The notes below the pieces were generated by a model, which searched no databases, was not told the DNA's origin, and saw nothing but the letters and a program-made list of their open reading frames with translations. A stretch of 64,000 nucleotides of DNA from Muribaculaceae bacterium (GTDB lineage: Bacteria; Bacillota; Clostridia; Lachnospirales; Lachnospiraceae), in assembly GCA_023666425.1 (NCBI GenBank), contig JAMPCA010000007.1, forward strand, positions 1 through 64,000. Reading direction: 5' to 3'. Positions 11,811 through 51,045 of the stretch are shown in pieces (position 1 is the stretch's first letter; each line of letters begins with the position of its first letter). The position numbers were made by a program, and so were the translations under genes.

Positions 11811-11845
11811 TCGTAAAGCTTACAGTTCTGCGTTCTGCCTGCATC

Positions 11846-11874: not shown

Positions 11875-11944
11875 GGCATTGTGCAGACAGAGAATACAAT
11901 GTCTGATTCATTGTGAAAAACAAAGGTGAAGTGAGGAACTGAAT

Positions 11945-14896: not shown

Positions 14897-14931
14897 TATT
14901 CTCGTCAGAATCTGTGGAAAACAATTCATGG

Positions 14932-14978
14932 CCCGGCATATTACCGGTGGGACAGATGAAATCCCCCGGTATGCCGGG
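14932..14978. terminator. Hairpin between the convergent kinase and ATPase genes
   Basis: CCCGGCATA (14932-14940) pairs with TATGCCGGG (14970-14978), and the inner CCGG and GG blocks extend the stem around a loop at about 14950-14962. It sits in the 102-bp space between convergent stops and probably terminates both transcripts. Confidence 0.65.
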
Positions 14979-14998
14979 TCTGAACAGTCTGGCCGGAC

Positions 14999-16399
14999 TT
15001 ATTTTGTGATTTCCTCTAAAAGATTTTTGTATGACACCAGTGTAACATTTCCCATTTTAGCCGCCAGATCCGCGCAGCCCTTTGTAAACCCATTTTTTGC
15101 AAAGATATACAACTGCACTTTACTATAATGGAACAGGCTGCTCCGCCTTGCCAGTGTCTCCAAAACACTTGCGTCTGCCTTCTCATTTGTCCACTTGCAC
15201 TCGCCAAACAATGCGGTTTCTTTATCCTGCTCCCCCATAATGTCAATCTCTGTCTGGCTATGGGTAGACGGATCCGTCCCCCACCAGCGCCCCAGCTCCT
15301 GAAACTCCACAGGAGACTGGCCGCCCAGCAGCAGCTTCCAGAGATACTGCTTACATATTTCCTCAAATACTTTTCCCATGTAATCTGACAGGTAAGGTTC
15401 AATTCGCTTATACGCCAAATCAGCCGCTCCACGGCCAATAATGGAATTATTCTCCGGCACAAACCGATACCAGAACCGAAACATATTATCCGCAATGACG
15501 TAAATGGATTTGCGGGAGGTTTTTTCACCATAGGGCGTCTCCTTTTGAACCAGCCCCAGCGCTATCAGGTTTTTCAGATATCCGGCACAAACGCTGGTAT
15601 CTTCCCCGACCTTTGTGGAGATTTCCGCCATGCGGGAAGCGCCCCCTGCAATGGCTGTAATAATCGCATTGTAAAGCGCAGGCTCCCGAACCTCCTGCTT
15701 TAGCAAATTCTCCGGCTCCTCAAAAAGTGCAGATGTAGAATTCAGAAATGTATTCTTAATATTGTCCTCAACACTCTGCCTGTCATTCATTTGCAATAAA
15801 TACTGTGGCGTCCCTCCCACCATGCCGTAAATCATAGCCTTATCCCCGCTGGAAAAATGATTGCAATACCGGCATGTATCCGCAAAATCAAAGGGCAGTA
15901 TTTTCATCTGCGATGTCCGTCTGCCATAAAGCGGCGCCTTGTATGCCAGCACATGATCCTCCATATAAGACATCGAGGAACCGCAAAGCACCAGCATTAG
16001 TTTCGAATGGTCTTTGTATTTGTCAATTAAAAGCTGTAAAGTAGATGCAAGGCTCTTGGAGGCACGGGCCACATACGGGTACTCATCCATCACCAGAATC
16101 AGGCGCTCCTTTTCTGCCAGCTTAAAGGTATATTCCAGAGCCGCCTGAAACGAAGCAAACGCCATCTCCGCCGGAATATCCGTTCCAAATTCCATAATAC
16201 TTTTACTGAAATTCTCCAGATTTTGTTTGTTGTTGCTCTCTACCCCCATAAAATAAATCGTCTTTTTATCGCTGATAAACTGGTTGATAAGTGCGGTCTT
16301 GCCCACACGGCGACGGCCATAAATCACTATAAACTCAAATTTGTCTGATGCATATAATTGATTGAGGGATGCCAGTTCGCGCTCTCTGCCGATAAACAT
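14999..16399 (-). CDS. AAA-type ATPase with C-terminal DUF234 nuclease-like domain
   Basis: This 466-residue cytoplasmic protein begins MFIGRERELASLNQLY, followed by the Walker A motif GRRRVGKTALI (about residue 28-38) and Walker B LILVMDEYPYV (about 101-111). LCGSSMSYM supplies the sensor-like segment. A winged-helix part (MAEISTKVGEDTSVCAGYLKN) follows. The last ~100 residues carry EIDIMG...ALFGECKW, a PD-(D/E)xK-like core found in DUF234. This architecture is widespread in Bacteria and Archaea and often duplicated; a role in DNA handling or defence is suspected, but none is established. GGAGGTGGGTTT precedes the ATG. An unusual palindrome lies upstream at 16478-16499. Confidence 0.85.
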   Translation of the reverse strand: MFIGRERELASLNQLYASDKFEFIVIYGRRRVGKTALINQFISDKKTIYFMGVESNNKQNLENFSKSIMEFGTDIPAEMAFASFQAALEYTFKLAEKERLILVMDEYPYVARASKSLASTLQLLIDKYKDHSKLMLVLCGSSMSYMEDHVLAYKAPLYGRRTSQMKILPFDFADTCRYCNHFSSGDKAMIYGMVGGTPQYLLQMNDRQSVEDNIKNTFLNSTSALFEEPENLLKQEVREPALYNAIITAIAGGASRMAEISTKVGEDTSVCAGYLKNLIALGLVQKETPYGEKTSRKSIYVIADNMFRFWYRFVPENNSIIGRGAADLAYKRIEPYLSDYMGKVFEEICKQYLWKLLLGGQSPVEFQELGRWWGTDPSTHSQTEIDIMGEQDKETALFGECKWTNEKADASVLETLARRSSLFHYSKVQLYIFAKNGFTKGCADLAAKMGNVTLVSYKNLLEEITK

Positions 16400-31913: not shown

Positions 31914-33428
31914 CTATGGCACGATAACTGTCACAATATTCGAATCTCCAGACTGACCGGCTACACAACAATAGTAATAATGGGGACCTGGCGTCAGAGA
32001 GTTAATTGTACAAGTCATTCCATTTACAACTATCGAATCAGGAGTCGTCATAGCAAGATCCCATGAAAACGATTCCGTATCGTTAGCAACACCACTTTCA
32101 TACCACTCAATAGTGGGATTATCTACTCCTGTCACTGTAGCTGTTAAGGTTACAGAACCGCCAGTAGTAACCTCTGACGCACTAAGTACAATCGTCACAT
32201 TGGTGCCTGGTGTAGTTGTACCACCAGTTGTACCTCCGGTCGTTCCGCCTGTGGTTCCTCCAGTTGTTCCACCCGTGGTTCCTCCAGTCGTTCCGCCTGT
32301 GGTTCCTCCGGTCGTTCCGCCTGTGGTTCCTCCGGTCTCTCCACCCGTGGTAGTGCCGCCCGTGCTGTCTGTAACGGTCTGCTCTTTGCCTGCCTCTACA
32401 CTCTGCGTTCCGGCAGATGTAGTAACCTCTACTTTGGCGGTGGTATCGTTCTTCACGTCAACCGAAGCGTTTGTAGTCGTCGTCTTGACTGTGCTTCCCT
32501 CTGCTCCCGCTGCAAGCTCAATCTTTGCATTTGCTGCAGACTCCACCTTAACGGTTACTGCGGTGGTGAGCTTTGCTCCTGCTGCATCAGAGGTAATTGT
32601 AACAGCGATCTCCTTTGCCGCGCCGGTGATGTCCAGTGTTGCTGCCGCATCCACATTCACCGCCTTTACCTCTCCGTCCGCCTGGACAGAGACTGTCGCG
32701 ACTGCACTGACCGCGACTGTGTCAACGCTTCCCTTTACGACGATGGCTACATTTGCATTCGCCTTCGTAACCGTAACGCCGGAAAGCTCCGCTCCTTCAT
32801 CCACAATGAGGCGGGCGTTGGGCGCGCTTACCTTGATCTCATTACCTTTAGCCTTCTCGGTAAATGTCTCAGGCTTAATGGATTTTACGGTGATGCTCTT
32901 AAATACGCCGTTATTTACCACATCTGCATTCGGTGCGTCTACCACGAGCGCTACCTTGCTGTAGGTGCCCGCCGGAATCGTAAATGTCCTGGCTGCGTCC
33001 GTCTTAATCGTGATCTTGGTCAGCTTCTTGTTCTTAAGTGCTGACGTCAATGCGGACTGCGTCGCTACCGTCTTGCTGGTTCCCTTGACTGTGACCTTGC
33101 ATTTTAAGGTGTAGGTCTTTGCCTTTGCGGTCTTTGTCGCCTTGGTCTTTACCTTGCAGGTAACTGTGGCACTTCCCGCTTTGACAGCCTTGACAACGCC
33201 CTTCTTCAACACCGTTGCCACTGTCTTCTTGTTGCTTGACCATGTCGCGGTGGAACCCTTCGGCTGATTCTTCACCTTGAGAGTCACCGAGTCACCGACA
33301 TACATGGATTTGCTTGTCGCGGACAGCTTCGGCTTCGTCGCCGCCTGCGCCTCTGTGACAGGCAGACAGCAGACCACCAGAAGCAGCGCCAGTGCCGCCA
33401 CAAACAGTCTCTTGCATGTGTTTTTCAT
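31914..33428 (-). CDS. Secreted Ig-like (BIG2-type) repeat protein with Gly-Gly-Thr-Thr linker
   Basis: A 504-residue exported protein. The start at 33428 (MKNTCKRLFVAALALLL) has GGAGGATAGGAAC upstream; the signal peptide probably ends after TEAQA. A BIG2-like domain follows (PKLSATSKSMYVGDSVTLKV, KAGSATVTCKVK). Next comes a ~230-residue Ala/Val/Thr-rich beta-solenoid-like region (AANAKIELAAGAEGSTVK). A flexible GGTT repeat leads to a last Ig-like domain (TIVLSASEVTTGGSVTLTAT). There is no LPXTG or membrane tail, so attachment is unclear. Its promoter has a poly-G spacer and may be phase variable. An adhesin or wall-associated role is inferred only. Confidence 0.8.
   Translation of the reverse strand: MKNTCKRLFVAALALLLVVCCLPVTEAQAATKPKLSATSKSMYVGDSVTLKVKNQPKGSTATWSSNKKTVATVLKKGVVKAVKAGSATVTCKVKTKATKTAKAKTYTLKCKVTVKGTSKTVATQSALTSALKNKKLTKITIKTDAARTFTIPAGTYSKVALVVDAPNADVVNNGVFKSITVKSIKPETFTEKAKGNEIKVSAPNARLIVDEGAELSGVTVTKANANVAIVVKGSVDTVAVSAVATVSVQADGEVKAVNVDAAATLDITGAAKEIAVTITSDAAGAKLTTAVTVKVESAANAKIELAAGAEGSTVKTTTTNASVDVKNDTTAKVEVTTSAGTQSVEAGKEQTVTDSTGGTTTGGETGGTTGGTTGGTTGGTTGGTTGGTTGGTTGGTTGGTTGGTTTPGTNVTIVLSASEVTTGGSVTLTATVTGVDNPTIEWYESGVANDTESFSWDLAMTTPDSIVVNGMTCTINSLTPGPHYYYCCVAGQSGDSNIVTVIVP
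32221..32352 (-). repeat. Tandem 12-bp (24-bp higher-order) repeat coding for Gly-Gly-Thr-Thr
   Basis: About eleven consecutive 12-bp units, alternating between two variants (plus strand CCTCCGGTCGTT and CCGCCTGTGGTT), give a 24-bp period. They encode GGTT repeats in a linker. Near-identity of neighbouring units suggests recent slippage or recombination. Confidence 0.9.
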
Positions 33429-33483
33429 GTTCCTATCCTCCATTCCCTTAATTAGTAGCACCACAAAACACTACTTATATTCC

Positions 33484-38390: not shown

Positions 38391-38472
38391 TCTATGATTA
38401 CTCCCCTAACAGAATGACTTTTTCTATCATTGCTCCTCTGACAAAACATCTTTTCTATTATTGTTCCCCTAC
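38378..38472. repeat. Three degenerate tandem copies of a 32-bp unit at the end of the fusion gene
   Basis: Copies at 38378-38409, 38410-38441 and 38442-38472 (plus strand) share CTTTTTCTAT-ATT-CTCC-CT. On the minus strand each copy holds a -GEQ-stop-like string: the first contains the real C-terminus (VGEQ, stop), the second SEEQ-stop, the third LGE-stop. The third copy merges into the terminator stem. Confidence 0.8.
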
Positions 38473-39795
38473 CCGCAGGGCATGCACGACAAAACGGTTT
38501 CCCGTCGTGGAGCAGGTCGAGAGAGTCACTACCAGATCGTCCTTCGTCGCTGTCACTCCCGTATCACGCAGGGACAGACCGTACAGCGAATCCAAAAAGG
38601 CCGCAAATTCCTCGTCCGGGGCAAAGGGTACCGCATAGATTGCACTGTCCTGCGGCACATGCTCGTAGGCAAAGATGCGGTAGCGATAAGCCGCTTCCTC
38701 CGTGAGAATCTGAAAATACTGGTGATCCCCATAATACTCATCCTGCAGATAATAATAGCGAAGTTTTCCAAACATGCTCAGATTGCGCATATTATGTCCA
38801 TACACAATCGTGTGACTGTCTGAAAAATCCGGGGTATTCTTTCCCTCCACGAAGATGCATCCCGCAGTTGCATGCGTTCCGTCTAAGGCCGTCCGCAGAT
38901 AGGTGGCGTCATCGCCGGAATAGAGGATCGGATAGCTGATATCCTCATTCTCAAAGCACAGCCAGCCCACCACGTCCGCATTTTCAGCCTTAAGGCCTGC
39001 AAAGTCTACCTCCGCGCACACCTCCCAGTCCGGCGCCGCCTCTGTCTGCTCCTGCACGGTTGTCAGCCCGTCATTCGCATTCGCCGCCGTATTGTGGGAG
39101 ACATATTCCCGGTCGAGCGTTTCATAAAGGTCATTCGATTTACTGTAGTTCCTCTGCATGACGAAAAGCCAGCCCCCTGCTCCCAGCACCAGCACGGCTC
39201 CCACTAAGAGAAACATCACCGCCAGACTTGGACTTTTACCCCTGCCCGGATTTCTGTTCTTCTTAACCCTTCCGCTCTTTTCCTTCGGCTCGTCCTTGTC
39301 CTTCGCCATGGCGTGCAGCAAAGCCGCCATCATTCGAAGAACCACTGCCAGCGCTAAAAGCGCAATCAGCGTCATTCTGCCGGAGGTCGTGGAAAGGATC
39401 CCACAGAGCACTCCCAGCCGCGGAATGGTGAAGGTCACAATGCCCAAAAGCCTGCTGTAGCGCACCGGGGACAGATCAGGCTCCGCATTCGCGTCTCCCT
39501 TCGTAATGAAATTCTGGCCGTCGGGATTGTTCTCCGTCACCCGGTGGGTAATCACCTCCGAGCCGTCCACCCCGCTGGAATAGGCAATCACATCCCCCAC
39601 CGCCACCGATGCGGGCTGCGCCGACTTCACATAGACCAGACTTCCCACAGAAATTGCGGGTTCCATGCTTCCACTGATAATATGATAACTCTGATAGCCG
39701 AACACCCGCGGAACCGCTACGGGAATACACAAAATAATTACAACTGCCAGAATGAAATTACTGATTATGCCGACAGCCTTCGATAATCTCATCAT
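38458..39795 (-). CDS. Fusion of a SipW/ER-type signal peptidase with a class B sortase
   Basis: A 445-residue membrane protein with two enzyme modules. Residues ~1-135: TM helix ISNFILAVVIILCIPVAV, then SGSMEPAISVGSLVYV (Ser43), EVITHRV (His84) and TKGDAN (Asp101), the Ser-His-Asp layout of SipW/ER signal peptidases, not the Ser-Lys of LepB. A second TM helix is near 142-163. After a basic linker, a third TM (LAVMFLLVGAVLVLGAGGWLF, near 193-213) leads into a sortase: GWLCFENEDISYPIL, IVYGHNMRN (His334), VVTLSTCSTTGNRFVVHAL (Cys428, Arg434), the class B pattern. It is last in the surface-fibre operon, behind TasA/CalY-like genes with SipW-type signal peptides, so one enzyme could both cleave and anchor these substrates. 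Confidence 0.88.
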   Translation of the reverse strand: MMRLSKAVGIISNFILAVVIILCIPVAVPRVFGYQSYHIISGSMEPAISVGSLVYVKSAQPASVAVGDVIAYSSGVDGSEVITHRVTENNPDGQNFITKGDANAEPDLSPVRYSRLLGIVTFTIPRLGVLCGILSTTSGRMTLIALLALAVVLRMMAALLHAMAKDKDEPKEKSGRVKKNRNPGRGKSPSLAVMFLLVGAVLVLGAGGWLFVMQRNYSKSNDLYETLDREYVSHNTAANANDGLTTVQEQTEAAPDWEVCAEVDFAGLKAENADVVGWLCFENEDISYPILYSGDDATYLRTALDGTHATAGCIFVEGKNTPDFSDSHTIVYGHNMRNLSMFGKLRYYYLQDEYYGDHQYFQILTEEAAYRYRIFAYEHVPQDSAIYAVPFAPDEEFAAFLDSLYGLSLRDTGVTATKDDLVVTLSTCSTTGNRFVVHALRVGEQ

Positions 39796-39797: not shown

Positions 39798-40808
39798 TTA
39801 TCTTTCTCTCTTGCGGCTTTTAAAGCGGAAAAACAGTATCAGTGTAACGATAAATCCGACTGCCGCGACCACTCCGATGATAACCGGAAGCAGCATTCCA
39901 TTCTCCTTTGCCCTTGCAAGAGGTGCCGCAGAGGTTTTCGCTCCGGCATTGCCTGCCAAAGGTACTGCATTGTCCTCGATGGTATTGATCTCCAGCCCGC
40001 GTTCCTCCTCGCTGCCTCCCGCGTTCTCGATATCCACCACACTCGCTTCTCCGCCGTCTTCTAAAGCTTCTTCGCCGTTTCCGTTATTCCCATCGGCTCC
40101 ATTCTGTCCGTCAGCGGCGTTCCCGCCAGCCGCGCCATTCTCACCGTCTGTCTCTTCTCCATCGCCCGCACCCCCGTCACCGGGTTCTGCGACCGACGTA
40201 TCCTGCCCCGGCGTATATACGAAGCGGAATTCGTTCTCCGCCGCATTCTCCGAAAGCGTCCTTGTAATGTTGCGCTCCACCGGCACATATCCGTCCACAT
40301 ACATATAGGCAAGCACCGGCTCATCTCCTACATTTCCCGAATAGGTCTGACTGTCCGCCAGCTCGTTTCCCTGCTCGTCTACATAGGAGACTGTATAGGT
40401 CGTCATCTTCCCAAGGATTCCGTAAGCAATTACATAATCCTGGCTTTCCGCTACCGTAAAGGCAGCGTTTTTGGCTATCGTATTGTTATCGCGGCCGCTC
40501 AGGCGGATCCCCCGGACATAATACTTGCTGTCCGCCGCCACCGCCACTGTCCGCTGGGCGTTACAGCTCACATTGTCGCCATAGCTTAAGCCGGAAATGA
40601 CAATTTTGTTTTTCCCAACCGATATCTGCACCTTTGCGGGATGCTTTGAAGCAACACTGATTCCCGAGGCATTTTTTACCGTTCCCTGGTTCCCGGCATA
40701 GATGGTCACCGTGTAGGTGTAGGTATCTGCCAGGGCAATTGTCCGCCCCCCGAGAAAAAGTGAACACACCAAAACCGCACAGACCAGATATCTTCCCAAT
40801 CTCTTCAT
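39798..40808 (-). CDS. Membrane-anchored surface protein with a MucBP-like domain
   Basis: The 336-residue protein has a signal peptide ending near GGRTIALA, two beta-rich regions (YTYTVTIYAGNQGTVKN; then TTYTVSYVDEQGNELADSQ to VPVERNITRTL, resembling a MucBP/InlB-type repeat), and a low-complexity acidic Gly/Asn/Asp/Glu stalk at about residues 200-265. It ends with a C-terminal TM segment (LLPVIIGVVAAVGFIVTLILFF) and basic tail. No clear LPXTG is present before the TM, so it may simply be membrane-anchored. AGGGAGGAAT precedes the ATG. It lies 2 bp upstream of the signal peptidase-sortase fusion. Confidence 0.78.
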   Translation of the reverse strand: MKRLGRYLVCAVLVCSLFLGGRTIALADTYTYTVTIYAGNQGTVKNASGISVASKHPAKVQISVGKNKIVISGLSYGDNVSCNAQRTVAVAADSKYYVRGIRLSGRDNNTIAKNAAFTVAESQDYVIAYGILGKMTTYTVSYVDEQGNELADSQTYSGNVGDEPVLAYMYVDGYVPVERNITRTLSENAAENEFRFVYTPGQDTSVAEPGDGGAGDGEETDGENGAAGGNAADGQNGADGNNGNGEEALEDGGEASVVDIENAGGSEEERGLEINTIEDNAVPLAGNAGAKTSAAPLARAKENGMLLPVIIGVVAAVGFIVTLILFFRFKSRKRER

Positions 40809-40812: not shown

Positions 40813-41535
40813 CTATTCCTCCCTTTTTTTGTACACGCAGATCCCTACAAGCATTAGAATCACGCCAAGCCCCAGCGCAATCACCGCTCCGAGCGTCCAG
40901 ACGTCCCCCGTCTTGACCCCGGGCGTGTGGCTCGAATTGGAGCCGGGACGATCCGAAGGCGTCCCCGAAGCCCGTTCTACCGCAAAATTCATCTTGAGCT
41001 GTGCCAGTGTATCCTGATAGGCATTTCCCTGGCTCTCTCCGTCCAGCGCAATCAAAAGCTGCACCTCACCTGTCTCTCCGGCCTCAAGGCGGTCCAGATA
41101 AAAGAATTCATCCAAAGAATCTGTGACCTCATTTAAGCCCTCCCCGGCATCCGAATCCTTCTCTCCGCCGACGCTCTCACTGTCATAGAGAGGCGTCACG
41201 GTTCCGCTCTGGTCAGTGTAGGTCAGCCGATAGGTGTAGCCGCCGTTCTCCGCCACGCTCTGGGCATCCTCCAGGGAGGACAGCACCTCGTTGGACATAT
41301 ACCAGTCCGTCACAAAATCAGCATTATTCGCAATCCGAACCCGAAAATCCACGGAATCCCCGGGCTGCATCTCTGACACAGACACCGCAAGCTTTGAGGA
41401 AGAAAAGGAGCTTTTCAGACCGTTTCCGTCAAAGCTGACCGTCCCCGCCTCCGTGGTCGTCGTCTCCGCATAAGCCGTCACTCCCATGGAAAGAGTCAGC
41501 AGAGCCGCCGCAGCCATCATCCATACTTTCTTCAT
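40813..41535 (-). CDS. Cell-surface protein with TasA/CalY-like domain and VKTGD sorting signal
   Basis: A 240-residue exported protein: signal peptide MKKVWMMAAAALLTLSMGVT-AYA, a beta-sandwich domain (VSEMQPGDSVDFRVRIANNA, FYLDRLEAGETGEVQLLIAL) similar to camelysin/TasA-type proteins, a Ser/Pro-rich linker, and a C-terminal cell-wall sorting region HTPGVKTGDVWTLGAV followed by a hydrophobic helix and KKREE. VKTGD resembles the NPKTGD/xxKTGD variants seen in clostridial sortase substrates. It is the best candidate substrate for the adjacent class B sortase module. GGGAGG precedes the ATG; the next gene starts 4 bp after its stop. Confidence 0.78.
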   Translation of the reverse strand: MKKVWMMAAAALLTLSMGVTAYAETTTTEAGTVSFDGNGLKSSFSSSKLAVSVSEMQPGDSVDFRVRIANNADFVTDWYMSNEVLSSLEDAQSVAENGGYTYRLTYTDQSGTVTPLYDSESVGGEKDSDAGEGLNEVTDSLDEFFYLDRLEAGETGEVQLLIALDGESQGNAYQDTLAQLKMNFAVERASGTPSDRPGSNSSHTPGVKTGDVWTLGAVIALGLGVILMLVGICVYKKREE

Positions 41536-41548: not shown

Positions 41549-42304
41549 TTATTGCAGGCTCAAAATGCCGCTGTCCGAAATATTTACATCCACGCCCCAC
41601 GCGCTTCGAATTGCCTCCTCGGCGTTGTGCGTCTGCACCGCATCCACCTCCGCCTCCACAATAAACTGCACGTCGTTGTAGAAATAGTCCTGCGTAGCCG
41701 TTGCCTTGCCGCTCCCATTTTTCTTTGCAATCATCGCATTTATGATGCTGTCGTCGATCGCCAGCGTATCGGTTAATGCCGCGCTGCTCTCCCCGGAGGC
41801 AAGCGGCCGGTTGTAATACAAAACCGTGCGCTCCGGCGTCGAGGCGGACGGGTCGATGATCCAGCCCTGATTCTCCAGAAAATGCAGGCGTATCGCCGCC
41901 GGATCCATATCTGTCCTTTTTTTCGTAGTCGCATTGCCGGAGGCATCACAATCCACCCAGTATTTTGTCACCGTCACCCGGACATACTCGTCGATCGTTC
42001 CGCTGTTTGTCACAGACAGAGCCTCCTCGTACTTTTTCCCGAAAGCCAGCTCCTCGTTCTCCCCAAGCATATGCTCTAAGAGCTTGCCGCTGCTCTGGCT
42101 CCACGCATCATCCTGATGGAGATAATCCCTCCAGCTTACCGCCGTCCCGTTCTCCACGAGGGACACGCCGATGGACTTAATATCCATCTGTGCCACATAA
42201 TCTTCACTGTAATAGGTGAGCGCCGCCCGGGCGCTGCCCGCCACACTGCCCGCCAGAAGCAGAACAGCCACACCAATCATAATCAGGGAAAGCTTCTTTT
42301 TCAT
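41549..42304 (-). CDS. Secreted TasA/CalY-like fibre protein
   Basis: The 251-residue protein has the signal MKKKLSLIMIGVAVLLLAG ending near ARAALTYYSEDYVAQ. The aromatic 'A-LTYYS' just after the cleavage region recalls the AYFTD-type context of SipW substrates. The mature part is a beta-rich domain with GKKYEEALSVTNSGTIDEYV and YVRVTVTKYW, and VIVEAEVDAVQTHNAEEAI-like C-terminal text ending AWGVDVNISDSGIL; AVQTHNAEEAI is a TasA-family-like segment. No anchor, so polymerisation or secretion. It starts 2 bp after the preceding gene's stop. Confidence 0.75.
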   Translation of the reverse strand: MKKKLSLIMIGVAVLLLAGSVAGSARAALTYYSEDYVAQMDIKSIGVSLVENGTAVSWRDYLHQDDAWSQSSGKLLEHMLGENEELAFGKKYEEALSVTNSGTIDEYVRVTVTKYWVDCDASGNATTKKRTDMDPAAIRLHFLENQGWIIDPSASTPERTVLYYNRPLASGESSAALTDTLAIDDSIINAMIAKKNGSGKATATQDYFYNDVQFIVEAEVDAVQTHNAEEAIRSAWGVDVNISDSGILSLQ

Positions 42305-42306: not shown

Positions 42307-42825
42307 TTACTCTGCCTCCTCTACATACTGCGCTGCTCTTGTCCAGTCAGCATTTGCCGCTCCCGTGGGGTTGCCAGCCTCGTCATAGACTGCCATGGTG
42401 CACTCTTCCACCACCACCACGTCAAAATCCATATTCAGCCCCGCCGGAACCGTGATTGACGCCACCAGCGCCTCCTCTGTCACGCCGCCGGAGGGCACCG
42501 GATTTGCATAATACCAGTAACCGTCGCTCCCCTGGCTCCAGTTTGTGCCGCTGGCACTGATCGTATACTGGCTGCCTGCCAGCACTTTTACACGCACATA
42601 GCACGGCTGCAGACCGGAATTGCGAATGCGTATCGTCTTTTTCCAGTCCTTAAATTCTTCCTCCACCGTAGTCCTTGCACTGTCGAGGGAAACCCTGACT
42701 CCTCCCTTTGCCGTCGCGTAAGTGGTAAAATATGCCATTGCACTCTGGGCGGAAAATGTGGATACAAGCACTGCCGCCAGTACCGCCCCCACTGAAAATT
42801 TTATATTTTTCTTCAACCGCTTCAT
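42307..42825 (-). CDS. Secreted TasA/CalY-like protein with SipW-type signal peptide
   Basis: The 172-residue protein starts MKRLKKNIKFSVGAVLAAVL; I chose the ATG at 42825 over a GTG two codons earlier because GGGAGG spacing fits. The signal ends STFSAQSAMAYFTTYATAKG; the A-YFT motif after the cleavage site is diagnostic for the TasA/CalY group processed by SipW. The mature domain is beta-rich (KKTIRIRNSGLQPCYVRVKV) and ends AADWTRAAQYVEEAE-like without an anchor. Operon position between an accessory pilin and a second TasA-like gene supports assembly into a surface fibre. Confidence 0.78.
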   Translation of the reverse strand: MKRLKKNIKFSVGAVLAAVLVSTFSAQSAMAYFTTYATAKGGVRVSLDSARTTVEEEFKDWKKTIRIRNSGLQPCYVRVKVLAGSQYTISASGTNWSQGSDGYWYYANPVPSGGVTEEALVASITVPAGLNMDFDVVVVEECTMAVYDEAGNPTGAANADWTRAAQYVEEAE

Positions 42826-42839
42826 GCTCACCTCCCGGC

Positions 42840-43856
42840 TTACTGCCTGATACCGTTGACCGTGCTGGAATTATCCGTCTGCTGCGTCCAGCTGTAGCCG
42901 CTGCCATCATAGCTGAAATGATTGACAACTCCATTGCCATATACAAGCTTATCCGCGTATGCGTTCGTAAAATCTGCCTTCGCGGGCTCCCCCGCCTCCA
43001 GCTTCTCAATCGTTACCTTCGTCGGGGAAACAGCCGTGTAGCTCGCGCCGGAATAGACCTCTGTGACCACCACCCGGCTTCCCACCGGAAGACCGCTCAC
43101 GGTCACGGACTTTGACCCCTCCTGCGTAAAGGACAGCGAGACTACATTGCTGTACACCACTGTATTTCCATTGTAAACTTCTACATCAAACGCAAACAGC
43201 GGATTTCCCAGACTGGGATTATAGCCCTTTAAGGTCTTTGTAATCAAAACCTCTCCCGCCAGCGGGTTCCTTGTCGGCTTTAAGGTCACGGCAATCTGGT
43301 CGTACACCCACTCGTCCGGAAGCTGCCCCATGGAAAGCCAGGCGTTCTCCGGCGCTGAGATCAGTCCGCATGTAAAATCATAGGCATAGGCATCCGTCTG
43401 CACCGAATCCGCGAGAACCAGATACAGTCCGGTCGGCAGGTCAGATACACTTCCCACACCGTTTTTCAGTACGATTGCCGCATCTGCTTTTCCCGCGGCC
43501 GCATCCTTTTGCGCCAGCGCAGCGATTGCCTCCCAGTCGGAGGCCTTGCTGTCCGCCGTAATCGCGTCGAGACTGCTCTGTATATCCGTATAGCCATTTA
43601 CCGCCGTATAAGCCCCCGAGCGGCTGATATCTGCTATCCGGTAGAGCCTCGCGGTCACGTCCAGCTTCTTAAGCTCCGTGTAATCCTCCTCGTTGCTGAT
43701 GCTAATCTGCATAGAGCAGGAGCGCTGTGTGTCCACATAGCCCTGCGCCCATGTCTGCAGGGACGGAACGGTCAGAATCACGGCCAAAAGCAGCACAAGT
43801 CCCAGCCGCCTACGTTTTCTTCCGTTTGCTCTTCTTTCTGTCCGCTTTGCTTTCAT
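42840..43856 (-). CDS. Accessory pilin-like protein lacking a sorting signal
   Basis: The 338-residue protein starts at 43856 (MKAKRTERRANGRKRR), after GGGAGGGAAGAAG, and overlaps the sortase C gene by 47 bp. A signal peptide (LGLVLLLAVILTVPSLQTWA) precedes an N-terminal pilin-like domain (RLYRIADISRSGAYT, NGVGSVSDLPTGLYLVLAD) and a Cna-B/DUF7601-like domain (GEVLITKTLKGYNPSLGNPLFAFDV, VTVSGLPVGSRVVVTE). Such domains can form intramolecular isopeptide bonds. It ends NSSTVNGIRQ with no LPXTG, membrane segment or charged tail, which is odd for a pilin encoded between a sortase and its substrates. Confidence 0.75.
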   Translation of the reverse strand: MKAKRTERRANGRKRRRLGLVLLLAVILTVPSLQTWAQGYVDTQRSCSMQISISNEEDYTELKKLDVTARLYRIADISRSGAYTAVNGYTDIQSSLDAITADSKASDWEAIAALAQKDAAAGKADAAIVLKNGVGSVSDLPTGLYLVLADSVQTDAYAYDFTCGLISAPENAWLSMGQLPDEWVYDQIAVTLKPTRNPLAGEVLITKTLKGYNPSLGNPLFAFDVEVYNGNTVVYSNVVSLSFTQEGSKSVTVSGLPVGSRVVVTEVYSGASYTAVSPTKVTIEKLEAGEPAKADFTNAYADKLVYGNGVVNHFSYDGSGYSWTQQTDNSSTVNGIRQ

Positions 43857-44703
43857 CTTCTTCCCTCCCAAATGCATGTTCCAAAATATATTCCCAGTCA
43901 ATCAGACCGAGCAGCTTTCGCGCGATAATATATAAAACCAGAATGACCACTGTGAGAATGACCGCCTCATGGGTATAAGGCACCATGGACGCATCCTGCA
44001 CAATAATTCTTGCGTTCTCCTCATTTTCAATCCGGCGTCCCCGCACGAGCAGCCGGTGTGAATTTACCCCGTAGGGGGTACATGTGACCAGTGTACAGTA
44101 ATCCTGATTCCGGTCAATCTCCAGATCGTTCAGCTCGTTCGGCAGGACAATATGAATCTGGTCTACCTGATAGGTGAGTGTCCCCCCGAGAACACTGATC
44201 CGGAATATGTCTCCCTCCGTAAGCTGGTCTATATCTGTAAAAAGTCTTGCAGAGCTTAATCCCCGATGCCCGGATATCACGGCATGTGTACCGATACCTC
44301 CCACGGGCAGGGAGGAACCCTCTATATGTCCCACGGCAATCTGCAGCACCGTAGCGTCCGTCCCATGATAGATGGGGAGCTGTACCTGAATACTCGGAAT
44401 CTCCACATATCCCATGATTCCCGTTCCGGAAACATTCAGGATTCCCTCGTACTCTGCGTAATCCTCATCCGTCATAGTCCAGCGGTCGGCTTTCGTGAGC
44501 AGCCGCTTATTATACGCATCCGCCTCCTGCAGAATCGTCTGCCGCGACGTCTCGTCGATGCTGTCTACCGTATTTTGATAACTTGCGATGGCCCGGGACT
44601 GATGAAAAGAATTCCAGTAATCGCTCACTGTCGGATACAGCAGCAAGGAGAGCCCTACCACTAACACGATCACCAGTATGATTGTGGATAAATGCTTCTT
44701 CAT
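43810..44703 (-). CDS. Class C (pilus) sortase
   Basis: The 297-residue transpeptidase has an N-terminal TM helix (TIILVIVLVVGLSLLLY), a lid region, and GYVEIPSIQVQLPIYHGT, AVISGHRGLSSARLFTDI (catalytic His) and YCTLVTCTPYGVNSHRLLVRG (Cys and Arg). A second C-terminal TM (AVILTVVILVLYIIARKLL) and highly basic tail are typical for class C sortases, which polymerise pilins via backbone Lys and LPXTG. It directly follows the LPSTG backbone pilin gene. The 47-bp overlap with the next gene suggests coupling. Confidence 0.95.
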   Translation of the reverse strand: MKKHLSTIILVIVLVVGLSLLLYPTVSDYWNSFHQSRAIASYQNTVDSIDETSRQTILQEADAYNKRLLTKADRWTMTDEDYAEYEGILNVSGTGIMGYVEIPSIQVQLPIYHGTDATVLQIAVGHIEGSSLPVGGIGTHAVISGHRGLSSARLFTDIDQLTEGDIFRISVLGGTLTYQVDQIHIVLPNELNDLEIDRNQDYCTLVTCTPYGVNSHRLLVRGRRIENEENARIIVQDASMVPYTHEAVILTVVILVLYIIARKLLGLIDWEYILEHAFGREEDESKADRKKSKRKKT

Positions 44704-44764: not shown

Positions 44765-46252
44765 TTACTTACTTGCGCGTTTTCTTGCTACCAAAAAGAT
44801 CGCAGCTCCAAGAACAAGTACAATACCAACCACATAGATGAGCACTGTTCCAGCACCACCGGTCGAAGGAAGAACTGCTCCTGAGAAGTTTACAACGTCT
44901 GAGGAAAGAACACCCGTCGCCACATCTCCGCCAAATGCCAGAATCGCATCTCCCTCAGAGGTCTGGGTCGCGGTCAGCGAATCCAATGTAATCGTCTGCT
45001 CTCCGTGATTTGCAACTACCGTAAAGGTTACATCAGGAATGGAGTTGTAACCGTTCGGGGTCGTCGTCTCACTTAAAATATACACACCGTCGTCAATGTG
45101 TCCAAAGCTAAAGCTGGTCTGATCCTCCGAAATTTCTACACGGTCGATCGTCAGCTGTGTTCCGTCTACAAGCACCTTGTACAGTGTAAAGCCTGCACCT
45201 GCCAGCGGGTTGTTATCGCCATCTACCTTGTTGATCACTACATTGTAAGTGAATACGATAACCTTATCCTCCGGCGTCTGTCCTACATCGCCTTCCCCGG
45301 AAGCATTCGGATTGTTGGAGAACTCGAGATATACCTCGTTCGGGTTACCTGCAGCGCCAGCTACCGCCTCGCTGTTTAATACAGCGCTGTACTCTACCTC
45401 AACGGTAGTGTTCGCTGTGATCTCCTGACCCAGCGCCTTAATATCATCACATGCAAAGGTAATGCTCTTGCTTCCGTCTGCATTTGCCTCGACGGTCTTG
45501 GTAAAGCCCGTCACTGCCACACCGTTGATCATTACCGTATAAGCATCCCCATCTGTATAGGTAAGTCCCGCACTTAAAGTATCGTGGAACACCAGTCTGT
45601 AGGAGGCATAATCCGCCACATTGGAGGGCATGGTCGCCACCAGACGGAAGGGAACGGTATCCCCAAGGTCATAGTCTGCGGATTTCTGCCAGTCTGTCAG
45701 CTCATACTCTGTGGAATCGTTGATATCCTTTACCCACTTAGATACGGAGGGCACATCTGCCTTCGGGGTAATGGTTACATTCTTTACTACCTGCAGGATA
45801 TTTGCAGTATAAGCAGAACCGGTTCCGTCCTGGCTTCCTTCTGCATCCTTGATCAGATAATAGCCTGCCTTTGTTACCATAATACTATATTCGCCGTAAT
45901 CGTTTGTATCTGCAACGCCCGTCGGCACTGTCAGATACTGCGCCAGAATCTGTGCAGCTGACTCAGCCGCAACTGTTCCGTTTGCAAGCGACTCCGCATA
46001 CTCTGCGGCATTTCCAAGGGCGTCCTGCCCCTCTGCGGAGATTCCCTCTCCCCACTGAATGTTGGAAAGTGTGGTGCCGTCCTCGCTCAGCTCGCCCGCG
46101 AAAATCTGGTAAGCCTCGTAGACGTGTCCGCTCTCCTCATTCTGCACCGTAATCAGGTATCCGCTCTGCGTATCGGCGAATACCGTCATACTCATTGCCA
46201 GTGTCAGTACAAACACCAGCATTGCTGCAACGACTCTTCTTGCTTTCTTCAT
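44765..46252 (-). CDS. Backbone pilin, SpaA-type, LPSTG-anchored
   Basis: A 495-residue pilus shaft protein. A signal peptide (RRVVAAMLVFVLTLAMSMTVFA) is followed by an N-terminal domain ending VVKNVTITPKADVPS; Lys ~164 in ITPK is the likely pilin-motif Lys. A middle isopeptide domain (YDLGDTVPFRLVATMPSNV) follows. A SpaA/Cna-B domain shows VVINKVDGDNNPLAGAGFTLYKV and the E-box YILSETTTPNGY. The sorting signal is VLPSTGGAGTVLIYVVG plus TM and RKRASK. Sortase C would join LPST to the Lys of the next subunit. AGGAGAG precedes the ATG; it is 12 bp downstream of the large adhesin gene. Confidence 0.95.
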   Translation of the reverse strand: MKKARRVVAAMLVFVLTLAMSMTVFADTQSGYLITVQNEESGHVYEAYQIFAGELSEDGTTLSNIQWGEGISAEGQDALGNAAEYAESLANGTVAAESAAQILAQYLTVPTGVADTNDYGEYSIMVTKAGYYLIKDAEGSQDGTGSAYTANILQVVKNVTITPKADVPSVSKWVKDINDSTEYELTDWQKSADYDLGDTVPFRLVATMPSNVADYASYRLVFHDTLSAGLTYTDGDAYTVMINGVAVTGFTKTVEANADGSKSITFACDDIKALGQEITANTTVEVEYSAVLNSEAVAGAAGNPNEVYLEFSNNPNASGEGDVGQTPEDKVIVFTYNVVINKVDGDNNPLAGAGFTLYKVLVDGTQLTIDRVEISEDQTSFSFGHIDDGVYILSETTTPNGYNSIPDVTFTVVANHGEQTITLDSLTATQTSEGDAILAFGGDVATGVLSSDVVNFSGAVLPSTGGAGTVLIYVVGIVLVLGAAIFLVARKRASK

Positions 46253-46264: not shown

Positions 46265-49200
46265 TTAATATTTGTGCTGTTTTTTGCATCTATATACAAT
46301 GGAAAACACTCCCGCAAGCACTAATAGCAGCATTCCTCCATATGTATAACATTTTGTTCCCATACCTCCGGTGGCCGGAAGCACATACGAATTTTCCTTA
46401 TTCGTAATGATGATGGTTCCGCTCGCCGCCGCGACGTCCCTCGCCGCGCTATAGCTCTCCCCGTCCTCCGTATTGGAGTAGGAGACCAGATAATGTCCGG
46501 TAGAGTTTGAAGTGTTCCCCTGGGTGCTCACGCCGACTTCCTCCACATAATACTGGTATAGCTGCTCATTTCCCGCCGCATCCCAGTAGCTCTTTGTCAG
46601 ATGGCCGAAGGTAAAGCTCCACGCCTTCTGTGTATCGAAGTCGATGGTTGTCGTATCATTTCCCTGATAGGGCACCAGCTCCGGCTCCCCGCTTTCGCCC
46701 AGCCGGTACAGCCGGACGTAAATCGTTCCATAATTGCGCTCCACTGCCGCGCCGTCAGAACCCTGCCAGCGTTTCTCCACCGTCAGTTCGGTAACATCCG
46801 GCGTATTTTCTATAATAGAGCGTTTATTGACCGACCACAGATTGACCGGCTCATTGATCAGTCCGCCGCTCTCGCCGCCGCTCCGCAGATCCAGCTGCTT
46901 CTCCGGGGGCAGCTTAAACTTAGAGTCCGCCGTTGCATAGTAAAAATAGTATTTGGGCGGATCCTTCTCGGTCAGATAGCCGTCCGGCGCTGTGGTTTCC
47001 TGAATATAGTACAGCGTATCCTTCTTGAAGAGCGCCGTGTTATCCGCTCCCTTGTCTGTCTTAAACTTTATGTAGATCTTGCCCTCTGCGTTGGTGGTTC
47101 GCGAGTCGATCTGTATATCCCCGCCGTCCTCCGCATACTGGTAGATTGCAAACTCTGCTCCCGGAAGCTGCAGGGCATAATTACCGCGCTCCACCTTCAC
47201 GATCTCGTAGGTGCACTCCGTCTTGATTCCTCCGGAAGTGCCGGACTTTTTCCACTGTTCGCGGATCACCTCGCCCGTCTGCGTATTCTGCACTCCCACC
47301 AGCTCCACACGGTTGTCAAAGGTCATGGGCGGATCGCTCACACCCGGAATGCTGGTAATCGACTCCGCATACTCCTTCCACTCCTTGAAGTTACCGGAGA
47401 TTGCATATTCGTAATCCAGAATCAGCGGTGTGCCGTCTGGTATTTTCGCCACTATGGTGTAGCGGTTGCTGCTCACATCTCCCGCCTCGGGATCCCAGTA
47501 AGACTGATAACCGTCATACTCCTTCGCCTCGCAGGTATAGCTCCACTGGGAAGCGGCAAGCTCCTGCCCCTTGCTGTAACTGATATTGCCCTCGCCGTCC
47601 TCGTTCGCCTCCGCATAATACAGCTTCACCTTTTCCAGATTCAGCTCTGCCTTCGCTTCCAGAGGAAACGCCAGCTGGTTCGGCCACACATACCTGCCGA
47701 TGGCAAGCTCATCCTTAAGCTCTATTGTTCCGCTGTCCGAGTATTTTCTTGCCGCCGGATTGATAACGACGGAATACTTCACGCTCTGCTTATTATAATC
47801 CCAGCTTCCGGTCTTGGAGAGTACCCGCACATCGGGCTCCGGCTCCTTTTCCTTCGTCCAGTTCTGAATCTGTACATTGGAGGGAATCTCCTTATCCGCC
47901 TCCCACAGCGTCGCACTGTTCTCGAAGGCTATGGTCTCTCCGACTTCCAGCTCCTCCAGATTCTCCACCACACAGCGATAGGTGATGGTGAAAGTATCCT
48001 CGGAGCTAAAATAGTTCTCCCCATTGTCAAATTCTACATTGATCACACCGTCCTCAACCCAGTAGGTACAGCTTAGGGTGCTGCTGCCGACTGTCCGCGT
48101 AACCTTCTCCTCCTCCGGCATAATATCCGCAAGGCTTCCCTTTGGTGTGCCGAGGAAGATTGCCGTGAGTGCGATTCCCTCCGGCAGACGGTCTGTCACC
48201 CGGAGCTTCTTGTAGGTATTGTCCAGATCCGGCGCCACCTTCACCTTCCATGTAAGCGCACCGTCGGAATTGGAAATATCGCTGGCTCCCGTTCCTCCGC
48301 TCTCATCTGTCTTGATAATGCCTCCCCGGGAGAAGGTATAGCCGCTGGACACCTCCTTGGGCGTCTCAATGTAAGCGTAGTTGATATAGTACTGCGTCTC
48401 TCCAAAGGCAGCCGCACCGCTCACATCTATGAATGTGGAATAATCAAATACAAACTCTCCGCTGTCCGGTTTCGCTATCTGCCGCTTTGCTTCTATATAA
48501 AAGGCATAGTATTTGCTATTCTCATCTCCGGCCGGAAATACGGTATACCCCGCCTTTGTACTATCCGGGTCGCGGTAATCCTTTTTCAGCAGGCCTCCGT
48601 TTGCAGATACATACAGTGTCCAGTCGTCGCCCAGCACCCGCTGCAGCTCTTCCATCTGGCTGTAGCTCATATACTGAACCGAGCCCTTGTCACCGTTAAA
48701 GTAGTCGAAAATCCGGGTTCCCTCTGATATATCTCCGCCCATCACCGTAAGCCTGGTCTTCCACGCCTGTGTGATGGTATTTTCATCGACCACGGCATAG
48801 CTTCCGTTCCGGTTCTTACTGATATTGTACAGCTCCACCGCAGCCGTCCCCGTCGCGACGCTGCCTCCTTCCGCATCGAGCAGAGTCACTGTGTTGCGGA
48901 TTCTTGAGGTACTCGTCTGCCCCACGGAGGTCTGGTAAGAAATACTGTAGCCGTTGAGATTAGGCTTCCCATTGACCTCGAAGAAATCGATGCTCGTCAC
49001 CTTGCCGGAATCCGAGACATTGATGCGGTACTCGCCCTCCACAATCTTCGTTCCGTCCGAATGCGTAATTTTAAGCCCCTTTGCATCTGCCTGCCCGAAC
49101 ATCGTATCTGTGAGCTTATAGCCCGCGAGGTTCACACCCGTATTGTGTATGCTGATACTCCATGCCGCCGTGCCGTCTGTGAGTCTTCCGTACTTAGAGA

Positions 49201-50422
49201 CAGTGCAGCTCTGGTTATGGCTGATTCTAAAGGAACAGTCGCAGACATCCTTCACCGGCTTGCCGGTCCACACATCCTCGCCCGACACCGTCACCTGATT
49301 GTTCACAGTCCGGCTTCCCTGCTCCCAGCTGTTGACAGCGTAACTGTACTTAATCTCATAGTACTCGCCCTGCATACGGCCGTTTCCGTCGCTGTGCGCT
49401 TCGTTCAGCCCCGGCAGCTCCAGCTTAAATCCATTCCCGTCCCTGCGAACGCTTATGTCGGAGACGACAAGCTCCTCCATCTGGCTCACGTCATAACAGT
49501 CCAGCCAGTCCTCCATGACCGCGCTGTTGTAGATACCGCTCCACCGCCCGATGCTCTCAAGCTGAAAGCTTGCCACATCCAGCATCTGATCCTTATCGGT
49601 CAAAACATCGGAGACCGTAATCATATCCGGCGTCCCCTTGAGGGAATAAATCTTAAGCGTATAGGCCACCCGGTTATTGACCGTATCCTCCGCCGCGGAT
49701 TTCTTGACCAGCAGATCGTAATTCAGGCTCACGTCCTCTGCGGGGAGCTTAATCTCGGATGGATTAACAATAAGCTCATACAAATCCGTAAATCTGATAG
49801 AAAGCTGTTCGGTCTTGGCAATCAGCCGGGAACCAAACTGGGCGTCGAACTGTACATATCCTTCCACCCACTCCCCCGGCGTCCCGGAAAACTGTGCGAG
49901 AATCCGGTATTCCCTGCTGTCTGCGTCATACACCAGACGATAGCGGCCTTTCAGGCTGCCGCCCTCGACTGCCATATCGTAGGCGTCTCTTCCGCTGCTC
50001 TCGGGATTTAGAAGCTCCTCCGGGATCTGCACCTCATCCGGGCATGTAAACACATAGAGGCTGGAGGTATCCAGCATGGAGCCGTCATCAAAACGGAAAT
50101 CCAGATGAAGATCCGATACAGAGACTGTCTCATTGCTCTTGTTATATGTATAGGAGTCCGCTGTCACATTCGTGACAAACTCATCAAGCGAACGATCCTC
50201 CCCCTGCTGGGAGAAGGCTACCGGAACTCCGTCGTAAGTCTCCATCGTAAGCTCCACGGCCTCCGTATTATCCCCGGTCGTCGCGGAGGCGGGTCCCGTC
50301 AACAGCCGCATGGTTCCCGCCAGAACCACCAGTGCGACCAGAACGACGATCTCCCACCACAATCTTGTATTTTTCTGCTTGGACAAACGCTTTTCGCTCT
50401 GTTTTATCAGATCCTTATCCAC
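46265..50422 (-). CDS. Very large pilus tip/adhesin with isopeptide-type domains, LPATG-anchored
   Basis: A 1385-residue surface protein. GTG start at 50422 (VDKDLIKQSEKRLSK) with AGGAGGG upstream. The first TM/signal (WWEIVVLVALVVLAGTMRLL) is followed by many beta-sandwich segments, including DUF11/isopeptide-type repeats (ITYRCVVENLEELEVGETIA, VKYSVVINPAARKYSDSGTI). Near the C-terminus are a SpaA-like domain (YEIVKVERGNYALQLPGAEF, YYIQETTAPDGY) and a Cna-B-like domain (LTVEKRWQGSDGAAVERNYG). The sorting motif is YVLPATGGMGTKCYTYGG plus TM. Its size and place before the shaft pilin fit a tip or minor pilin. The ligand is unknown. Confidence 0.9.
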   Translation of the reverse strand: MDKDLIKQSEKRLSKQKNTRLWWEIVVLVALVVLAGTMRLLTGPASATTGDNTEAVELTMETYDGVPVAFSQQGEDRSLDEFVTNVTADSYTYNKSNETVSVSDLHLDFRFDDGSMLDTSSLYVFTCPDEVQIPEELLNPESSGRDAYDMAVEGGSLKGRYRLVYDADSREYRILAQFSGTPGEWVEGYVQFDAQFGSRLIAKTEQLSIRFTDLYELIVNPSEIKLPAEDVSLNYDLLVKKSAAEDTVNNRVAYTLKIYSLKGTPDMITVSDVLTDKDQMLDVASFQLESIGRWSGIYNSAVMEDWLDCYDVSQMEELVVSDISVRRDGNGFKLELPGLNEAHSDGNGRMQGEYYEIKYSYAVNSWEQGSRTVNNQVTVSGEDVWTGKPVKDVCDCSFRISHNQSCTVSKYGRLTDGTAAWSISIHNTGVNLAGYKLTDTMFGQADAKGLKITHSDGTKIVEGEYRINVSDSGKVTSIDFFEVNGKPNLNGYSISYQTSVGQTSTSRIRNTVTLLDAEGGSVATGTAAVELYNISKNRNGSYAVVDENTITQAWKTRLTVMGGDISEGTRIFDYFNGDKGSVQYMSYSQMEELQRVLGDDWTLYVSANGGLLKKDYRDPDSTKAGYTVFPAGDENSKYYAFYIEAKRQIAKPDSGEFVFDYSTFIDVSGAAAFGETQYYINYAYIETPKEVSSGYTFSRGGIIKTDESGGTGASDISNSDGALTWKVKVAPDLDNTYKKLRVTDRLPEGIALTAIFLGTPKGSLADIMPEEEKVTRTVGSSTLSCTYWVEDGVINVEFDNGENYFSSEDTFTITYRCVVENLEELEVGETIAFENSATLWEADKEIPSNVQIQNWTKEKEPEPDVRVLSKTGSWDYNKQSVKYSVVINPAARKYSDSGTIELKDELAIGRYVWPNQLAFPLEAKAELNLEKVKLYYAEANEDGEGNISYSKGQELAASQWSYTCEAKEYDGYQSYWDPEAGDVSSNRYTIVAKIPDGTPLILDYEYAISGNFKEWKEYAESITSIPGVSDPPMTFDNRVELVGVQNTQTGEVIREQWKKSGTSGGIKTECTYEIVKVERGNYALQLPGAEFAIYQYAEDGGDIQIDSRTTNAEGKIYIKFKTDKGADNTALFKKDTLYYIQETTAPDGYLTEKDPPKYYFYYATADSKFKLPPEKQLDLRSGGESGGLINEPVNLWSVNKRSIIENTPDVTELTVEKRWQGSDGAAVERNYGTIYVRLYRLGESGEPELVPYQGNDTTTIDFDTQKAWSFTFGHLTKSYWDAAGNEQLYQYYVEEVGVSTQGNTSNSTGHYLVSYSNTEDGESYSAARDVAAASGTIIITNKENSYVLPATGGMGTKCYTYGGMLLLVLAGVFSIVYRCKKQHKY

Positions 50423-50451: not shown

Positions 50452-51045
50452 CTACTTTACTCCGCCAAACCGATTGAATGGCCAGACGCAATACTTTACC
50501 TTCCCGACAATCTGCTCCTCGGAAATACACCCCATGGAGGTATTTCTCGAATCCAGGGAAACGCTCCGGTGGTCTCCCATCACAAAAATCCGCTCCTCCG
50601 GCACCTGATAGGGAAGTTCGATATTACAGTCCCCCAGTGCCTTCTCGTTCAGATAAGGCTCATCAATCGCGATATCGTTTACATATACCGTGCCATCCTC
50701 GGAAATATTCACCCAGTCTCCCGCCCGGGCGATCACCCGCTTCACTAACAGCTTGTTATTATAATAAAATGCAATTACATCCCCGGTCGTATAATCATCC
50801 AGCTTCGATGCGACCAGAATCTGCCCTTCCGCAAGGGTCGGGCTCATGGAGCTGCCCGTCACCTGCATCACCGGAAGCCACAGATTCGCAATCAGAATCG
50901 CGATCGCCGCCGCTACAAGCAGAGTCCCTGCCGTGTTGGACAGCGTCCCCGCAAACTTTTGATTGTACTTGACTCTCCGCAGCTCATCTCTGAGCTCCCG
51001 CACCCGCAGGTCGGCATTCTTTGCGTCTTTTTCCTTTCTATCCAT
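50452..51045 (-). CDS. lepB: Signal peptidase I, LepB-type
   Basis: A 197-residue membrane peptidase. TM helix LLVAAAIAILIANLWLPV, then GSSMSPTLAEGQILVAS (catalytic Ser), YYNNKLLVKRVIARAGD (Lys) and FVMGDHRSVSLDSRNTSMG (box E). This Ser-Lys type contrasts with the SipW-like module at the other end of the operon. Pilus operons often carry a dedicated signal peptidase. It overlaps the coiled-coil gene by 8 bp, and the adhesin gene follows 29 bp later. Confidence 0.95.
   Translation of the reverse strand: MDRKEKDAKNADLRVRELRDELRRVKYNQKFAGTLSNTAGTLLVAAAIAILIANLWLPVMQVTGSSMSPTLAEGQILVASKLDDYTTGDVIAFYYNNKLLVKRVIARAGDWVNISEDGTVYVNDIAIDEPYLNEKALGDCNIELPYQVPEERIFVMGDHRSVSLDSRNTSMGCISEEQIVGKVKYCVWPFNRFGGVK

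Follow-up and report, generated by a model that had tools for sequence, protein, structure and literature searches.

We find that the minus strand of the window, by which we mean the whole analysed stretch of 64,000 nucleotides of a Lachnospiraceae genome, carries a row of genes running from position 51045 down to 38458, the last of which encodes a fusion of a SipW-type signal peptidase with a class B sortase (Table 1). The last five genes of this row are separated by gaps of 2–13 bases, and by this spacing the row may constitute one operon. LPxTG pilins with pilin domains lie together with a class C sortase in the same row, which identifies it as a sortase-assembled pilus cluster. The frame of the DUF5979 protein was listed from a TTG codon inside the sortase gene, and its true start is probably located downstream. 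With the Lep-type peptidase at its head (50452-51045), this one row encodes a pair of signal peptidases that differ in type and a pair of sortases that differ in class. Elsewhere on the minus strand of the window, positions 31914-33464 encode a secreted-looking protein of 516 aa with a long TGG repeat tract.

Table 1. Features of the gene row and of the fusion protein in the window, with the basis for each assignment.
Feature	Coordinates	Strand	Basis
SipW-type signal peptidase::class B sortase fusion, 445 aa	38458..39795	minus	uninterrupted frame and domain matches
Class B sortase domain, residues 243-431 (His334, Cys428; Arg434 just beyond)	38503..39069	minus	TIGR03064 under cut-off, and sortase B structures
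TM2-TM3 linker, about residues 161-192, net charge +6, probably cytosolic	39220..39315	minus	hydropathy scan
Signal peptidase domain, residues 11-153 (Ser43, His84, Asp101)	39337..39765	minus	TIGR02228 over cut-off
MucBP-like protein, 336 aa, C-terminal hydrophobic stretch	39798..40808	minus	PF06458 25.6 bits, cut-off 23; conserved in order
KTGD-family protein, 240 aa, wall-sorting signal, likely sortase substrate (predicted)	40813..41535	minus	TGD invariant in 24/24, window included
VKTGD sorting motif, then hydrophobic stretch and basic tail	40903..40917	minus	translation, alignments
TasA/BsaA-like protein, 251 aa, likely SipW substrate (predicted)	41549..42304	minus	hhalign 99.5% to SipW-cognate set
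BsaA-like protein, 174 aa, likely SipW substrate (predicted)	42307..42831	minus	TIGR04090 E 2.3e-5, under cut-off; hhalign 99.8%
DUF5979 pilin-like protein, 353 aa, no sorting motif seen	42840..43901	minus	PF19407
Class C (pilus) sortase, 297 aa	43810..44703	minus	NF033745 279.7 bits, cut-off 160
Pilin, 495 aa, isopeptide D2 domain, LPSTGG	44765..46252	minus	PF16569, PF17802, TIGR04226
Large pilin/adhesin, 1385 aa, LPATGG	46265..50422	minus	PF17802, translation
Bacterial (Ser-Lys) Lep-type type I signal peptidase, 197 aa, just upstream of the pilins	50452..51045	minus	frame; weak TIGR02228 match under cut-off; Ser/Lys motifs by eye

SipW-type peptidases of the TIGR02228 family have an active site of Ser and His (not Lys) with Asp, and class B sortases anchor special substrates. 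The original prediction had placed a SipW/ER-type signal peptidase and a class B sortase in one polypeptide at this locus, and this is confirmed: the frame of 445 codons for amino acids is uninterrupted and both domain families are matched. In the domain search (NCBIfam), TIGR02228 scored 93.2 bits against a curated cut-off of 51.85, while TIGR03064 was the best-scoring sortase model with 140.3 bits, below its curated cut-off of 153.75. The fusion shares the His, Cys and Arg of the class B sortases of TIGR03064, from which it differs by its N-terminal peptidase and by this score under the cut-off. The equivalog model of Bacillus SipW (NF046067) was not reached, with 79.1 bits against a curated cut-off of 190. 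In a sequence comparison with solved structures, sortase B chains came out on top (lowest E 3.1e-25), and the first part of the protein came closest to SEC11A (E 3.7e-5). Ser43, His84, Asp101, His334, Cys428 and Arg434 are found at the positions originally given for them, and all six are identical in the 17 fused proteins that we collected. We rejected the idea of a dead peptidase domain.

The architecture differs in one respect from what had been predicted, namely three modules separated by membrane segments ahead of the sortase. The hydropathy profile points instead to two outer modules and three membrane helices, TM1 near residues 10-28, TM2 at 142-160 and TM3 at 193-211, so that the two enzyme domains would lie outside and the linker of about 32 residues on the inner side of the membrane. 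Among the 17 fused proteins the linker between TM2 and TM3 is 12-52 residues long with a net charge of 0 to +7, and its sequence is not conserved. An extra, mostly weaker hydrophobic stretch at about residues 111-134 is seen in five of the 17, including the proteins of the window and of a Blautia metagenome-assembled genome (MAG; locus L029).

The same full frame is present in that Blautia MAG, at 94% identity to the fusion of the window. Comparison of these two assemblies gave dN/dS values of 0.18 for the peptidase (residues 1-140), 0.29 for the linker with the stalk (141-250) and 0.12 for the sortase (251-445). In all we collected 17 distinct fused proteins from 17 genomes of four genera in one family, 16 of them from outside the genome of the window, with L029 and genome G372, which have identical proteins on contigs of equal length, counted as one entry. 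A contig scan with the fusion protein found one relative only, and whole-genome searches found far more. A full-length frame without a stop occurs in 8 of the 62 genomes of the genus, in at least 9 of 344 genomes drawn from the order and, with a single-sequence query, in at least 4 of 299 drawn from the family, the window's own genome being included each time. The 348 genomes of a phylum draw, again with the own genome, gave no fusion beyond that one among the four or five top-ranked candidates of each genome. These genome sets overlap, and as scoring for the order, the family and the phylum went no further than these four or five top candidates, fused genes may have been missed there.

Separate genes in some relatives (L083, L172) could suggest that an assembly error or a frameshift has joined two genes in our sequence, an explanation to which we assign a negligible probability. 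It is refuted by the independent assemblies, in which the frame is intact and neither active site has been lost, by the 16 further fused proteins from other genomes and by dN/dS values below 1 in every part. The recurrent fusion of two known enzyme families within a fibre gene row is thus real. We found no published description of it in our searches of open-licence papers, and protein databases may already pair both domains.

The surroundings of the fused gene recur as well. In 11 other loci (L029, L059, L060, L062, L079, L173-L178) the genes stand in the order BsaA-like, TasA-like, KTGD-family, MucBP-like and fusion, and 10 of these have a class C sortase within the stretch, the one without being L079. 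In L079 and L178 the set of BsaA-, TasA-, KTGD- and MucBP-like genes is found in two tandem copies. The second copy of L079 is close to where the stretch ends, and in L178 a fusion terminates just one of the copies.

Three TasA/CalY-like proteins had been proposed next to the fusion, and for two of them the likeness is clear by profile comparison. The score of the 174-aa protein against TIGR04090 was 24.3 bits, under the cut-off of 60, and 14 of the 17 members of its family, including that of the window, match this model at E <= 0.05. In the family of the 251-aa protein 7 of 22 members match, and the window member has no match at 0.01. The hhalign probabilities of these two families (Table 1) were obtained against a SipW-cognate reference set, in which the BsaA model is matched by 14 of 17 and the SipW-cognate signal-peptide model by 11 of 17. 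The third protein, which carries the sorting motif, is doubtful: its family reached 95.1% over 72 columns against the SipW-cognate set and 85.5% over 39 columns against a TasA-like set, and TIGR04090 was absent from the families matched by its 24 members. Because the AlphaFold models, made for the rows of the window and L029 only, were poor (pLDDT 45.0 for the VKTGD protein and 32.2 for the 251-aa protein), the claim of a TasA fold rests on sequence profiles. A sequence search of the PDB gave nothing significant, with best E values of 0.19 for the KTGD profile and 4.9 for the TasA-like profile.

The VKTGD sorting motif that had been noticed in this third protein is present, and its TGD is retained throughout the family. 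We had considered that the motif might be present only together with a fused or nearby sortase; this was rejected, as L076, which has SipW alone, keeps AKTGD and the TGD is invariant. The signal peptide of the KTGD protein ends by eye in an ordinary AxA-like site, so a Lep-type peptidase could cut it. In the genome of the window, a profile of the KTGD anchor region found the neighbour gene with E 6.4e-14, and the next match (0.003) concerned the membrane part. TGD anchors were counted in 16 of 290 ORFs less than 3 kb from a class B sortase gene (SrtB), in 1 of 116 at 3-6 kb and in 7 of 226 beyond. We set this enrichment aside as general evidence, since the KTGD family itself makes up 20 of the 24 cases and drives the count, and used only the three near cases from outside the family: the unfused sortases of L085, L089 and L069 lie 61, 0 and 2599 bases from anchor proteins with APKTGD, APKTGD and AVQTGD, respectively. 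One further TGD case from outside the family, in L177, is far from SrtB.

Among 60 related stretches, which were all selected by a match to the fusion protein and are not a random sample, KTGD-family genes accompany a SipW-type domain in 24 of 29 cases, and none of the 31 stretches lacking such a domain has one. The corresponding counts were 24/29 and 0/31 for TasA-like genes, and 22/29 and 0/31 for BsaA-like genes. L179 (= L083) and L169 (= L029) were excluded from these stretches, and a recount over all reading frames agreed. For three of the 17 fused genes (L082, L170, L171) the stretch has neither a KTGD nor a TasA-like gene, two of these contigs being only 7.8 and 5.9 kb long. The KTGD genes of L061 and L084 stand farther off, at 9.9 and 10.9 kb from the fused gene, and in both loci a separate SipW gene intervenes. 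KTGD genes also occur without SrtB in the stretch (L076, L186, L188), and the one in L182 is about 10 kb from L181, the closest SrtB known there. The end of the cassette itself varies from SipW alone (L076, L188) over SipW followed by SrtB (L172, L083) to the fusion, and L183, a stretch of 10.3 kb at a contig end, has a class C sortase (SrtC), a pilin, a DUF5979-profile protein (without Pfam match) and SrtB, with neither SipW nor any of the BsaA-, TasA- or KTGD-like genes. This series, L183 included, is the pattern expected if SipW serves the BsaA/TasA-like part.

The sortase half seems to have a history of its own. In this genus a core-locus row has the order BacA, PPTase (phosphopantetheinyl transferase), GreA, MTHFR, SrtB and a gene of about 150 aa, as assigned by Pfam in L063 and by eye in L181, where there is one extra gene. 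In a tree of 103 sortase domains, of a quick kind without bootstrap, the domain of the window falls among 24 rows (support 89, not starred) comprising 15 fused and 9 unfused sortases. The ~150-aa core-locus gene is beside seven of these nine unfused sortases, and it follows 12-216 bases after the fused gene in L060, L061, L062, L170 and L171. A second SrtB match above 200 bits, a threshold picked after seeing the table and applied to genomes of which several are incomplete, was found in 0 of 8 fused genomes of the genus versus 23 of 53 others (G381, in which the genes are adjacent, was set aside). From the tree grouping, the adjoining ~150-aa gene and the missing second match, our tentative reading is that the fusion took over from the core-locus SrtB of this genus, although other histories are conceivable. 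In L061 (genome G005, 1233-15856), GreA and MTHFR are found by eye upstream of the fused gene; TasA-like genes and two SipW domains stand between MTHFR and the core-locus SrtB, and the last SipW is fused to SrtB. In the genome of the window, the ~150-aa gene is situated well inside a different contig (C11; L198, 7130-9023) beside BacA and GreA, by eye, and MTHFR and SrtB are absent there. In G372 and G033, too, the ~150-aa gene and the fused gene are on different contigs. Upstream of the core-locus SrtB of L067 (10568-11086) and L080 (9632-10147) we observed weak SipW-like proteins (39 and 42 bits) without the Ser motif, which look like dead relatives and are reminiscent of SipA.

Such a history raises the possibility that the sortase half still is a general core-locus class B sortase, with substrates elsewhere in the genome among which the VKTGD neighbour would be at most one. 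The 24-row group, the ~150-aa gene next to unfused and fused members alike, the lack of a second SrtB above 200 bits in the eight fused genomes of the genus and the stretches of L170 and L171 without a KTGD gene all agree with this. We nevertheless find it rather doubtful, since the KTGD anchor profile has no second strong match in the genome of the window and since, among the five sortases encoded there (the fusion included), two of the three further class-B-like ones adjoin KTG-type anchor proteins of their own. These separate sortase-substrate pairs are located in L199 (3782-5807) and L201 (4397-6243), where the anchor proteins carry SPKTGA and TPKTGV.

More than one origin of the fusion is probable. 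Seven changes of the fused label are required on the sortase tree, at least three of which are forced by starred branches, and the tree of 38 peptidase domains likewise gives seven changes with at least three forced; these counts do not separate gain from loss. The best example of a separate event is L033/L082 (G293), placed together with L034/L083 and L106/L172 (support 100), in which the genes are separate and adjacent: in L083 no more than one stop codon interrupts a frame shared by the peptidase and the sortase, and in L172 there is a gap of 18 bases. L084 (G349), on a long branch, is another candidate for a separate fusion. In the sortase tree the row of one candidate fusion, L035, is on a long branch.

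The original prediction went further and proposed that the fusion couples signal cleavage to anchoring for all three neighbours. The recurrence of the fusion, the two retained active sites and the row with BsaA/TasA-like genes and a sorting-motif protein lend such coupling partial support; the part concerning three common substrates is doubtful. No sorting signal is visible at the ends of the two BsaA/TasA-like proteins, so that cleavage and anchoring would most likely concern different subunits of one fibre. We suggest a bifunctional enzyme with three membrane helices that brings two steps together at one place, namely maturation of the BsaA/TasA-like subunits by the SipW half and attachment of the VKTGD protein to the wall by the sortase half, and to this account, in which we infer the operon, the substrates, the activity, the order of events, the coupling, the site of origin and fibre formation by the BsaA/TasA-like proteins, we would give an even chance. 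The SipW-type domain, held at the outer face between TM1 and TM2, would cut the signal peptides of the BsaA/TasA-like proteins as they leave the translocon. The short linker would cross the cytosol and TM3 would bring the class B sortase domain back to the same outer face, where it could cleave the VKTGD protein at its sorting motif and join it to the cell wall as the base of a fibre. Because the sortase half would link the VKTGD protein to the wall at this spot, the released BsaA/TasA-like subunits could assemble beside the wall-fixed base, and the LPxTG pilins would fall to the row's Lep-type peptidase and class C sortase. In favour of this account are the conserved active sites, the position of the genome's only SipW-type peptidase over the cut-off beside two BsaA/TasA-like genes, the result of the KTGD anchor profile and the invariant TGD. 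Against it count the KTGD genes with no SrtB in the stretch, the three fused genes whose stretches have neither a KTGD nor a TasA-like gene, the distance of the KTGD genes in L061 and L084, and the AxA-like site of the KTGD signal peptide. As for its origin, the fusion may have formed at a place with a class B sortase gene directly downstream of a cassette whose last gene was sipW; in Blautia this sortase gene would most likely have been the core-locus SrtB.

It is also possible, and we take this seriously as a minority view, that two enzymes simply share one polypeptide, each with its own substrates, and that the fusion brings 1:1 expression and no functional coupling. The genes are already adjacent in relatives and sometimes in the same frame (the single stop of L083, the short gap of L172), so that fusion would be a small step, and a cytosolic C-terminal end of SipW and a cytosolic N-terminal end of the sortase, as the hydropathy suggests, would make it easier still. 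Against this stand the three or more changes of the fused label on well-supported branches and the meeting of both activities in one fibre cassette, and the linker, although not conserved in sequence, is short in all 17 proteins.

A precedent for a different role of the first half is found in Streptococcus pyogenes, where SipA is dead as a peptidase but essential for pilus assembly, a role that is called unclear (PMC4049620, PMC7900414). The SipW half could thus mainly be a substrate-positioning partner of the class B sortase, in the manner of SipA, a signal-peptidase fold without catalytic residues on which the pili built by a class B sortase depend (PMC4049620, PMC7900414); the Ser-less SipW-like relatives upstream of the core-locus SrtB in L067 and L080 would fit such a role. 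We consider this unlikely, as none of the 17 fused proteins has lost Ser, His or Asp and the fusion is the only SipW-type enzyme over the cut-off in the genome of the window.

The combination of a signal-peptidase-fold protein with a class B sortase, acting or encoded side by side for a single surface fibre, is shared with the FCT-2/3/4 pilus of S. pyogenes (SipA/LepA) and the NE pilus of Clostridium perfringens (PMC4049620, PMC7900414, PMC8088525), which differ from the fusion in that, as described there, the two are separate proteins, SipA is dead and Lep-like, and no TasA-like subunits are named. According to a review of the S. pyogenes pili, the reason why some of them use a class B sortase as well as SipA/LepA is not clear (PMC7900414), and the fusion would offer a testable single-chain case of this unexplained partnership. 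Closer in gene content is the sipW-bsaABCRSD operon of C. perfringens with srtB, which likewise combines a SipW-type peptidase, BsaA-family proteins and an adjoining putative sortase gene (PMC7395162), whereas sipW and srtB are separate genes there and the operon description names no fusion, class C sortase or pilin (PMC7395162). Deletion of this srtB next to sipW-bsaA changed neither pellicles nor BsaA polymers (PMC7395162), which counts against the coupled mechanism that we suggest.

A SipW-type peptidase serving a TasA-family fibre is otherwise known from Bacillus subtilis (tapA-sipW-tasA) and Bacillus cereus (sipW-tasA/calY/CapP). SipW is a protein of its own there, and the B. cereus system has been characterised as sortase-independent (PMC13082335). 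In B. cereus, CapP is wall-associated and chaperone-like and regulates the polymerisation of CalY (PMC13082335). The fusion is in contrast a candidate route for covalent wall anchoring of TasA-like proteins in gut Lachnospiraceae. We tentatively propose a sortase-anchored TasA-family fibre, in which one enzyme would cut the N-terminal ends of the subunits and fix the C-terminal end of the base at the same spot, possibly joined to the class C pilus. If true, this would be a covalently wall-anchored form of a fibre type that the B. cereus account presents as sortase-independent (PMC13082335).

A last observation concerns the C-terminal ends of the two proteins encoded next to the fusion. A short acidic motif, [IVL]x[DE]..(V/T)PL, is located near the C-terminus in 13 of 24 KTGD-family and 14 of 25 MucBP-family proteins versus 5 of 541 other ORFs in these stretches, with a pattern that was chosen after seeing the alignment and with one stretch counted twice (L179 repeats L083). 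In the window the motif is found only in the MucBP-like protein, as IEDNAVPL.
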